This document shows, in pieces, positions 33,579-37,997 of a stretch of 64,000 nt of DNA (position 1 is the stretch's first letter; each line of letters starts with the position of its first letter). The stretch is taken from the NCBI RefSeq assembly GCF_014217875.1, contig NZ_CP059060.1, forward strand, positions 2,170,001-2,234,000, read 5' to 3'. The notes under the pieces are model-generated. The model was not told where the DNA came from, did no database searches, and worked only from the letters and a program-made list of their open reading frames with translations. A program made the translations under genes and the position numbers. This stretch comes from Synechococcus sp. LTW-R (GTDB taxonomy: Bacteria; Cyanobacteriota; Cyanobacteriia; PCC-6307; Cyanobiaceae).

Positions 33579-34919
33579 TTGTTCCAGGGGTGCCTGGGCT
33601 GTCTGGCGGTGATCTTTGTCGGGATGCTGAACCGGGTGATGCTCACGGAGTTGGGCTTCCCGGGTTTGCTCGTCGGTGGGGCCCTGGCCCTGGAACAAGT
33701 CGTGGCCCCGGCCCGGATCCTGTTCGGTCAAATATCCGATAGCCGTCCCTGGGTGGGGCGCCACCGGACGCCCTACATCTGGCTGGGCTCGGCCCTCTTT
33801 TGCAGCCTGGCGGTGCTTCTGATTCCGCTGATCTTCCGGCTGCATGCGGCCTTTGGCTCCGGAGACGCCGGCGCGATCACGGCCGGCATTGCCGCCATCT
33901 GTGGGGTGGTGGCTTGCTATGGCCTGGCGGTCTCCTTGGCCACGACCCCCTATTTGGCGCTGGTGATTGACCTGACCAGCGAGGAGGAGCGCCCCCGAGC
34001 GGTGGGCCTGATCTGGTGCTTGCTCACGGTCGGCATCGTGGTGGGGGCGATTGCCACCAGCATTTGCCTCAAGGGTCTGGACGGGGTGAGCGATCCAGCC
34101 CTGCTGGAGCCCGCGCTGTTCCAGTTCTTGGCGCGTGTGGCCGTGGTGGTTTTTGCCCTAACCGTTTTCGCCACGTGGGGCATCGAGCCCCACGCCAGCG
34201 AACGCGCCATTAGCCGCTCGGAGGACCGGGAAGACGCGATCACCCTTGGGGATGCCTGGCGCTTGATCACCTGCAGCCGTCAGGTGCTGGTGTTTTTCTG
34301 CTTCCTGCTGGCCTTCACCCTGGCGGTGTTCCTGCAGGACCCGATCCTGGAGAGTTACGGCGCCGAGGTCTTCGGCCTGCCGATTGCGGCGACGGCTTCG
34401 TTGAGCGCCGTTTGGGGGGTGGGAACCCTGCTCGGTCTTCTGGTTGCGGGCCTCTGGTTGGTTCCCAAGCTTGGGAAGTTCACGGCAGCACGCTTGGGCT
34501 GTCAGTTGATCCTGTTGTCCTTGCTGCTCTTGGCGGCGGTGGGGGTCTTGGCCGATCCCAATGCATTGCGGATCGTGCTGTTTCTGTTTGGACTGGCGAC
34601 AGGGATCGGAACCAATGCCACCTTGGTTTTGATGCTGGACCTCACCCTTCCTGCCGTCGCTGGCACCTTCGTTGGTGTCTGGGGGCTCGCCCAGGCCTAC
34701 TCAAGGGCGTTGGGCAAGGTCATGGGTGGTGGATTGCTGGATGCCGCGCGTTGGCTGCTGCCCGATGCGCCAGCCCATGCGGCCTATGGCCTGGTGTTGG
34801 TGTTTGAGGCGGCCATTGCGGTCCTGGCTCTGGTGCTCTTGACCCGGGTCAGCCTGAAGCAATTCCGGGCGGATACAGCCAGCAATCTCGATCGTGTTCT
34901 CGCCGCGGAGCTGGGGTGA
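33579..34919 (+). CDS. PucC/BCH2-type MFS carrier
   Basis: From the first standard start, TTG 33579, this is 446 residues with about 12 helices; LNRVMLTELGFPGLLVGGA and DSRPWVGRHRTPYIWLG are typical of PucC-family proteins thought to handle (bacterio)chlorophyll delivery or assembly of antenna. The family usually has a few more N-terminal residues, and here they are readable upstream (LPLPRLIRLGLFQGCLG), back to CTG codons at 33537 and 33531, with an in-frame stop at 33507 and no ATG, GTG or TTG. The true start is therefore unclear. Confidence 0.78.
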   Translation: MFQGCLGCLAVIFVGMLNRVMLTELGFPGLLVGGALALEQVVAPARILFGQISDSRPWVGRHRTPYIWLGSALFCSLAVLLIPLIFRLHAAFGSGDAGAITAGIAAICGVVACYGLAVSLATTPYLALVIDLTSEEERPRAVGLIWCLLTVGIVVGAIATSICLKGLDGVSDPALLEPALFQFLARVAVVVFALTVFATWGIEPHASERAISRSEDREDAITLGDAWRLITCSRQVLVFFCFLLAFTLAVFLQDPILESYGAEVFGLPIAATASLSAVWGVGTLLGLLVAGLWLVPKLGKFTAARLGCQLILLSLLLLAAVGVLADPNALRIVLFLFGLATGIGTNATLVLMLDLTLPAVAGTFVGVWGLAQAYSRALGKVMGGGLLDAARWLLPDAPAHAAYGLVLVFEAAIAVLALVLLTRVSLKQFRADTASNLDRVLAAELG

Positions 34920-34921
34920 CG

Positions 34922-35725
34922 ATGCTTTCTCTTGCAATGCCCGAAGGGTTGGAGCGGCTCGGTGCGCTGCTCGATGAGGTGGCCGAGCGGCAACGCCAGG
35001 ACTTTGGTCAGCTCGATTCCGAGGCGAAGGCGGACGGCAGTTTGATTACCGCCTGTGACCGTTGGAGCGACGCCACCTTGGTCAAGGGGCTGGCTGAGCT
35101 CTACCCCGGAGAAGGGGTTTTGAGTGAAGAAGGCAGCCAGCGGGTTCCGACCACCGAGGCCTATTGGGTGGTGGATCCCCTGGATGGGACGACGAACTTC
35201 GCGGCGGGGATTCCCTATTGGGCGATTTCCCTGGCTCGCTTTGAGAATGGCGTGCCAGTGCTGGCGGTTTTAGATGTTCCGCCGTTGCGTCAACGGATCG
35301 TGGCCATCAGAGGCGGTGGTGCCTGGCGGAAGGACAAAAAATTGGGAGCTCCGTCGGCTCGCAACCAAGTGGCGGGCTGCGCGTCGCTCTGTAGTCGCTC
35401 GATCGGGGTGCTGCAGAAGCTTCCGAATCAGCGCTTCCCCGGAAAGATTCGTCTGCTGGGGGTGGCCAGCTTGAACCTGGTGAGTGTGGGGATGGGCCAG
35501 ACCATCTCCGCTTTGGAGGCCACACCGAAGATTTGGGACTTGGCGGCGGCCTGGCTGGTGCTCCAGGAACTGAACTGCCCGATGGATTGGTTGGTGCGCG
35601 ATCCGGGGCAGTTGGAGCCGGGTGAGGACCTCAGTGAGGCCAACTTCCCAGTGTTGGCAGCTCGCAACGAGGAGACCCTGGCGCGCTTTAAGCCCTGGGC
35701 GGACGCGTTGGTCGGCCGAGCTTGA
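34922..35725 (+). CDS. Inositol monophosphatase family protein
   Basis: From ATG 34922 this is 267 residues with metal-binding motifs GVLSEEG, WVVDPLDGTTNF and late WDLAAAWLVL, as in IMPase/CysQ-like Mg2+-dependent phosphatases. The substrate may be inositol phosphate, PAP or a sugar phosphate; not decidable here. It overlaps or abuts the PucC stop (TGACGATG). Its TGA (35723-35725) lies inside the -35 region of the rRNA promoter. Confidence 0.87.
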   Translation: MLSLAMPEGLERLGALLDEVAERQRQDFGQLDSEAKADGSLITACDRWSDATLVKGLAELYPGEGVLSEEGSQRVPTTEAYWVVDPLDGTTNFAAGIPYWAISLARFENGVPVLAVLDVPPLRQRIVAIRGGGAWRKDKKLGAPSARNQVAGCASLCSRSIGVLQKLPNQRFPGKIRLLGVASLNLVSVGMGQTISALEATPKIWDLAAAWLVLQELNCPMDWLVRDPGQLEPGEDLSEANFPVLAARNEETLARFKPWADALVGRA

Positions 35726-35753
35726 CCCCAGAGGGGCCGATGGTGTTATGGTT
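35722..35753 (+). promoter_or_regulatory. Putative rRNA operon promoter
   Basis: TTGACC (35722-35727) is a good -35, with TATGGT (35747-35752) as a possible -10 at a spacing of 19, wider than the ideal 17. It sits before the structured leader, which fits a transcription start near 35759. Other -10 choices (TTATGG at 18) are possible. Confidence 0.4.
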
Positions 35754-35789
35754 ATGTGCTGCGAGCAAACCGAAAGGCGAGTGAGCAGC

Positions 35790-35846
35790 GAACTGGAACC
35801 CGAGGTGACTTGGTGATGTAGGTTCGATCGGCGGCAGCGATGCCGC
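35790..35846 (+). repeat. rRNA-leader structural module, copy 1
   Basis: Unit 1: GAACT (35790-35794) pairs with GGTTC (35821-35825) outside; inside, CCGAG (35800-35804), loop GTGA and CTTGG (35809-35813) form a 5-bp hairpin. After a 5-base linker, GCGGCA-GCGA-TGCCGC (35831-35846) forms a second hairpin. Both loops are GNRA. Confidence 0.65.
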
Positions 35847-35850
35847 TGGT

Positions 35851-35907
35851 GAACTGAAAGCCGAGGGAACTCGGTGATGTAAGTTCAACAAGCGGTCGCG
35901 AGGCCGC
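35851..35907 (+). repeat. rRNA-leader structural module, copy 2
   Basis: Unit 2 repeats unit 1 at a period of exactly 61 bases: GAACT (35851) with AGTTC (ends 35886), inner CCGAG-GGAA-CTCGG, a 5-base linker, then GCGGTC-GCGA-GGCCGC (35892-35907). About 30 of the first 36 positions match unit 1; the changes T-G to T-A and CA/TG to TC/GG keep the pairing. Confidence 0.65.
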
Positions 35908-36218
35908 GGACCGAGAGCCCGAAAGACCTGAGAGGGTCGAGCTGAGAAGCGTGTGGCGATCGGAGCACCTGGACAACTGAACGTTTAGGAACTGACGCTT
36001 TCACTGCGTTAGTCGCGAGCTGAGGCTGAGAGGCTGAGGTGAGTGGTTAACGAAGATGCAGTGAGGGTGTGAGGTCCCGTCAAAAGTTTTTTAGTTGTGG
36101 AAGCTTGTTGCTTGCACGATCTGTCGACTCTCACGGTTGACGGTTGTGTCGGTGTGCAGCAAGTGGAGCAACGACCGGATCTGAGATCCTGGAAAGTCTG
36201 AACGAAAGAGATTTTGTT

Positions 36219-36235
36219 TTGCACTCTTTGAACGC
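36219..36235 (+). promoter_or_regulatory. boxA-like antitermination site in the rRNA leader
   Basis: TGCACTCTTTGAACG resembles the boxA consensus TGCTCTTTAACA read by Nus factors. It lies about 105 bases before 16S. Confidence 0.5.
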
Positions 36236-36340
36236 TTCTGTCAGAGGAAGTGGCATCAACTGCGACCGTGCGCCAGCGCGAGTTGTGGGTGAGGCAAGTC
36301 AAATTGAGATCACGAAAGTGATCAATAGGATTTGATCTAC

Positions 36341-37822
<1,482 letters not shown>

Positions 37823-37997
37823 ACAGGGAGACAAACAACGATTTTGATGCCTGAGTACTTTTATTCTTAGGCCGAAATCCTGTCACCTTAGGTCGATCGG
37901 TACCTCAACTTCAATCCTGTGAGTCGTAAGGCTGCACAACGATTGATTTTTAGTTCCTAAACGTTGTCTAGGTCACCCCATAGAGGGTTCACTTCCT

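Follow-up and report, generated by a model that had tools for sequence, protein, structure and literature searches.

A two-hairpin RNA module, occurring singly or in tandem, in the rRNA operon leaders of picocyanobacteria

The rRNA operon and its leader

The window, which is the whole 64-kb stretch of the Synechococcus sp. LTW-R chromosome analysed here, contains one of the three rrn operons of a closed 2.4 Mb genome, with the gene order 16S, tRNA-Ile, tRNA-Ala, 23S, 5S. The 16S rRNA gene is preceded by a leader of about 580 nt, in which a probable promoter, a terminal hairpin, two similar units (units 1 and 2) and a boxA-like block follow one another (table 1). The upstream gene ends inside the probable extended -10 promoter, which is not among the sites listed by the consensus promoter scanner. 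A hairpin occupies the equivalent 5'-terminal place in the leaders of most relatives. A terminator reading of the leader was considered and rejected: the sole terminator-like site lies on the opposite strand, and its frequency is as expected by chance.

The codirectional gene upstream (34916-35725), the stop codon of which overlaps the rrn promoter, encodes a protein of the inositol-monophosphatase family. Its product is matched best by histidinol-phosphatase and IMPase, the Nus factor SuhB is also matched (E 4e-18), and the score falls under the cut-off for every named equivalog. Similar C-termini precede the rrn leaders in several related genera. In E. coli, SuhB, which shares its fold with the inositol-monophosphatase family, serves as a factor in rRNA antitermination.

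Table 1. Features of the rrn operon leader and its surroundings in the window (the covariance model behind the bit scores of units 1 and 2 was seeded with units of the genus, these two included)
Feature	Position	Strand	Evidence
Probable rrn promoter: TTGACC (35722-35727), extended -10 TGTTATGGT (35744-35752), spacer 19	35722..35752	+	sequence; kept before relatives' leaders
5'-terminal hairpin GCTGCG...GCAGC, directly 5' of unit 1	35758..35789	+	predicted fold
Unit 1	35790..35847	+	covariance model, 74 bits, E 2.6e-16; structure and pair counts
Unit 1, outer helix	35790-35794/35821-35825		
Unit 1, inner hairpin	35800-35813		
Unit 1, constant strand	35814-35825		
Unit 1, 3' GNRA hairpin	35831-35846		
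Unit 2	35851..35908	+	covariance model, 83.7 bits, E 1.1e-18
Unit 2, outer helix	35851-35855/35882-35886		
Unit 2, inner hairpin	35860-35875		
Unit 2, constant strand	35875-35886		
Unit 2, 3' GNRA hairpin	35892-35907		
boxA-like block and leader strand of leader-trailer helix (CACCTGGACAACTGAACGTTTAGGAACTGACGC)	35966..35998	+	counterpart of GAACCTAGACAA..GTTTGAAAG; complement in 16S trailer
16S rRNA gene downstream of the twin-unit leader	36339..37823	+	Rfam RF00177, 1598 bits
Trailer strand of leader-trailer helix, AGTTCCTAAACGTTGTCTAGGT	37952..37973	+	exact match in window

The ACCTGGACAA block agrees with the leader consensus of cyanobacteria, and the block at 35966-35998 is similar to the boxA of the ITS, GAACCTTGAAAA (PMC8461337). 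In other cyanobacterial orders, GAACCTAGACAA...GTTTGAAAG lies directly 3' of a promoter-proximal hairpin. Since its complement AGTTCCTAAACGTTGTCTAGGT is present in 16S trailers, the block at 35966 is assigned to the leader strand of the leader-trailer helix. A motif search located an exact or near match to AGTTCCTAAACGTTGTCTAGGT in 10 of the 10 family genomes with a readable trailer; two genomes from outside the family (G158 and G154), in which the trailer is masked (N), were left out of the comparison. The helix was taken from this motif search, as the automatic search for the strongest duplex returned mostly accidental G+C-rich pairings. Because the helix is formed by the block at 35966, the two units lie outside it, in the place occupied by boxB in E. 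coli. The units themselves were also tried as the leader-trailer helix, and hence the RNase III site, and this assignment was rejected, as the downstream block already accounts for the helix and the duplexes between units and trailer are long and gapped.

Two further blocks of the leader, 36066-36083 (GGTGTGAGGTCCCGTCAA) and 36172-36198 (CGACCGGATCTGAG..GGAAAGTC), show strong conservation among the family leaders compared, including those that have lost the module, and have no Rfam match. A second boxA-like sequence (TGCACTCTTTGAAC, 36220-36233), about 105 nt 5' of the 16S rRNA gene, is also conserved in the family.

Anatomy and folding of the twin units

The initial annotation had placed twin units in the rRNA leader, and the covariance model locates both of them there as the only two high-scoring copies in the window, the next matches reaching at most 16 bits. 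A model built from other genera only recovers unit 2 (35844-35907, E 2.6e-4), which provides independent evidence of homology. Each unit is a module of 58 nt with two hairpins: a helix with a nearly invariant 3' strand, UGNUGUARGUUY (the constant strand), encloses an inner hairpin that is variable, and at a fixed distance follows a second hairpin. The outer helix, the CCGAG inner hairpin, the 5-nt linker, the GCGG hairpin and the TGATGTA stretch that had been described at first are all present in the sequence.

Other parts of the initial description hold within narrower limits. The exact 61-nt period is correct for the window, but it is 59-62 in sister operons and 58 between cores in two other leaders (L009 and L210). 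Compensated base changes are borne out by covariation across relatives, whereas the two units of the window differ by one two-sided pair only (A-U to C-G, in the 3' hairpin), the remaining paired differences being one-sided wobbles. GNRA loops are characteristic of the 3' hairpin, where they cap 73% of 48 distinct stems, but the inner loop is often TTTA, TTTC or GCAG in relatives. The suggestion that tetraloops dock in the pre-16S RNA found no support, because the inner loops vary freely in the genus and are inconsistently GNRA, and because the 61-nt period is local; the 3' loop is likewise not GNRA in some relatives.

Taken alone, unit 2 is predicted to adopt exactly the structure proposed for it, and unit 1 one that comes close. 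For the twin array, the predicted minimum-energy fold is one long hairpin in which strands are swapped between the units (-57.2 kcal/mol, vs -48.7 kcal/mol for the intra-unit fold), a swap that is possible because units 1 and 2 are alike. It is predicted to be favoured in some twin operons, not in all, and operons with a single unit permit the intra-unit fold only. The existence of single-unit operons, together with the divergence between units 1 and 2, argues that the intra-unit fold would be the selected one.

Conservation and copy number in the picocyanobacterial family

Counted over 36 distinct units of the genus, 97.5% pairing is seen in the outer helix (GAACY/RGUUC) and the 3' hairpin, and their covariation exceeds that of 500/500 shuffles. 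In relatives, the 3' hairpin has two-sided changes in all six of its pairs and 98.2% of cells are paired, a score reached by 0/500 shuffles; none of 500 shuffles reaches the score of the whole module either. The stem of this hairpin has been rewritten many times, for instance as GCGGUC/GACCGC, GUCGCU/GGCGAC, GUGGCC/GGCCAC or AGUAGC/GCUACU. In both units, no other part of the pre-boxA leader is as well conserved as the constant strand, with a mean identity in the genus of 94% in unit 1 and 96% in unit 2, second only to boxA (98%); the inner hairpins reach 63-67%, and the 5' hairpin and spacer about 74%. The constant strand is thus more conserved than pairing requires.

In most genera, CUUAC pairs with GUAAG and closes the constant strand; the changes in this helix are one-sided and all wobble-compatible, so that they are consistent with pairing but do not amount to proof by covariation. 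The window's genus has GAACY as its 5' strand, which pairs four bases further on with RGUUC and leaves a GAA/GUA internal loop. Both 5'-strand options occur in a row in three leaders (CUUACGAACU in L051, CUUGCAGAACC in L086 and CUUACGAACC in L119), which are plausible intermediates of a change of register. The 3' strand has thus stayed fixed, whereas the strand that pairs with it has been exchanged.

At the gathering score, Rfam 15 recognises only rRNA and tRNA in the window, and the best match of the leader is Ysr224, with 18 bits against a cut-off of 70. Cyano-2 (RF01702) is an RNA of marine Synechococcus with GCGA-capped hairpins, and its covariance model has no match in the host genome or in any control genome. 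The lack of an Rfam match, the family-wide conservation and the covariation support a structured rrn-leader element that belongs to no named family. The initial view that no named leader element resembles these units is reasonable, but the rrn leader had already been listed as a structured element: Axmann et al. (2005) include an 'rrn operon leader' (cluster 92), predicted to be structured in four marine picocyanobacteria (Prochlorococcus and Synechococcus), as a list entry only, and the accessible text of that source describes for it neither a module nor a constant strand, nor a duplication or a change of register (PMC1242208). Cluster 92 very likely includes the single-copy module. The anatomy of the module appears to be undescribed in the open-access literature searched.

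The other rrn copies of the genome, a check that the initial annotation had named, show the paired pattern again. Two of the three host operons carry both units in leaders that are identical over the 635-nt query, and in the third the promoter stands immediately 5' of unit 2, without unit 1. The five matches of the model in the host genome are all in rrn leaders, as is the case in the closed genomes of sister species, and between the 16S and 23S genes of the window the + strand holds no match. Sister species have twin or single units, and loci with the window's unit include those of Vulcanococcus sp., Cyanobium sp. and Synechococcus sp.

The comparison took in the leaders of about 60 more rrn operons from the family. 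Most have one module, the copy number is 0, 1 or 2, and wherever a leader carries the module, it is situated between promoter and boxA. By sequence comparison, the twin units of the window can be identified as two tandem copies of a conserved module of the rrn 5' external leader in the Prochlorococcus-Synechococcus-Cyanobium-Vulcanococcus group. Tandem pairs have periods of 58-62 in the window's genus, 72 in Synechococcus sp. AG-670-F04, 67 in two other lineages (G632 and G559), 66 in G685 and 142 in one operon of G580, and the relatives of these lineages outside the genus have one copy. As both the periods and the genera differ, these pairs suggest repeated, probably independent tandem duplication. 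Core counts of 2 in four leaders (L010, L103, L104 and L105) were set aside; the extra core match in L103-L105 seems to come from the promoter region, with one mismatch.

The pair in AG-670-F04 (L187, 2324-2463, minus strand) has a GAAC..GUUC outer helix, and it apparently represents a separate duplication as well as a separate change of register. The 142-nt duplication in the G580 operon (L215) covers most of the pre-boxA domain, and another operon of G580 has apparently one copy.

The module was not recognised in seven boxA-keeping leaders of small-genome and other members (L064, L073, L079, L089, L101, L070 and L126), of which L070 retains a degenerate GTAAGTT. Among the genomes in which it went unrecognised, G116, G047, G102, G141 and G032 retain both boxA and the leader-trailer helix. 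Because it has been lost from leaders that keep boxA, and because the copy number differs among the operons of one cell, the module is useful but dispensable and not essential. Outside the family, a core-motif scan of 24 other cyanobacterial leaders found no module, and the pre-boxA stretch is much shorter in other cyanobacterial orders. A class-wide search with model R2 gave matches in the picocyanobacterial family only, under strict filters that also missed the host genome. Tandem copies with varied spacing are what is expected for an autonomous module, and the comparison shows the module to be autonomous enough for duplication and selected for a fixed strand and a fixed geometry.

Comparison with known systems and possible roles

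The closest parallel in position is the boxB-boxA-boxC region of the E. coli rrn operons, which likewise has structured RNA between promoter and boxA; boxA is shared, and genes for NusA and NusB are above cut-off in the host genome. On the other hand, E. coli boxB is one small hairpin, whereas the module has two hairpins and 0-2 copies, and E. coli repeats boxB-boxA before 23S, whereas the window has no copy of the module there. The host genome also differs in having no Rho above cut-off, the matches being weak (20-24 bits, in frames of 524 and 486 aa). E. coli boxB has no known ligand, and the function of the pre-boxA leader is open even there. Deletion of the boxB region in E. coli has little effect on 30S activity; in the Enterobacteriaceae, this region contributes little that can be measured, whereas the leader-trailer helix is essential (PMC10250234).

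The put RNA of HK022 binds the zinc-binding domain of the RNA polymerase beta' subunit without protein factors. Its putL and putR sites are cis-acting, about 60-70 nt long, consist of two stem-loops near the promoter and bind the polymerase directly (PMC9378689). The module also has two hairpins near the promoter, within 58 nt, and resembles putRNA in size and layout; putRNA is a phage element, and no homology of sequence or structure between the two is evident.

Our leading interpretation, to which we give a probability of roughly 45%, is that the module is a lineage-specific element acting in cis on the elongating polymerase, the Nus complex or early assembly, the mechanism being inferred only. 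It would work while the transcript emerges, the two flanking hairpins presenting the constant strand UGNUGUARGUUY for binding. The binding partner could be RNA polymerase, contacted directly as by HK022 putRNA, or the Nus complex that assembles on boxA, or else an early assembly protein. Binding could keep rRNA transcription free of pauses and coupled to 30S assembly; RNase III cutting of the leader-trailer helix would then discard the module, and where there are two copies, the second would reinforce or buffer what the first does. With no Rho above cut-off, a role in anti-pausing or assembly is likelier than protection from Rho. Counted against this interpretation are the losses of the module, its differing copy number among the operons of one cell, the lack of a copy before 23S, the mild effect of boxB deletion in E. 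coli and the one-sided changes of the outer helix in other genera. A stronger version, a cellular and protein-free put-like RNA in which the module itself binds the elongating picocyanobacterial polymerase and suppresses pausing operon-wide without Rho, copy number tuning the strength, strikes us as a long shot.

Some of these observations would fit other explanations. The hairpins might act as an insulator or folding aid that prevents mispairing of the leader with nascent 16S or shields the 5' end against nuclease attack, without recognising any particular partner: they are local and stable, their stems vary freely in sequence without loss of pairing, the pre-boxA leader is generally rich in GNRA hairpins, and the module is naturally lost. 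However, it is the strand UGNUGUARGUUY and not the stems that is most conserved, it stays constant while its partner is replaced, and pure insulation needs neither a fixed sequence nor a fixed distance to the 3' hairpin, which leaves this explanation on the unlikely side. The module might instead be a site for a ribosomal or assembly protein without any action on polymerase, for example in feedback control or in the delivery of an early 30S protein. Protein sites commonly take the form of a helix-internal loop-helix in which the unpaired bases are conserved (GAA/GUA in the window's genus), and two copies would raise the local concentration; but other genera lack this internal loop, their GUA being paired with UAC, and the module has no likeness to any r-protein leader in Rfam. 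We regard such a site as improbable.

The remaining two alternatives concern the fate and the origin of the units. Their position upstream of the leader-trailer helix means that cleavage by RNase III would free them, and the released piece could accumulate as a trans-acting small RNA with the units as functional domains; no target was found, however, the longest complementarity to the constant strand in the operon being 10 nt at one place in 23S, and we consider this highly improbable. Neutral tandem duplication of a plain leader hairpin by slippage would agree with a copy number that varies among the operons of one genome and with the many periods of the duplicates, but it has hardly any likelihood in our view, since the core of unit 1 is kept as well as that of unit 2 (94 vs 96%) although the inner hairpin has diverged, which is unexpected for neutral copies.

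Picocyanobacteria are among the most abundant photosynthetic cells on Earth, in oceans as well as in lakes. What their rrn leaders offer is a defined, conserved and repeatedly duplicated module at the pre-boxA place. The module is instructive for RNA evolution as well, in that a helix has changed its pairing register with one strand fixed. Natural strains with 0, 1 or 2 copies make its function directly testable by swapping or deleting the module.
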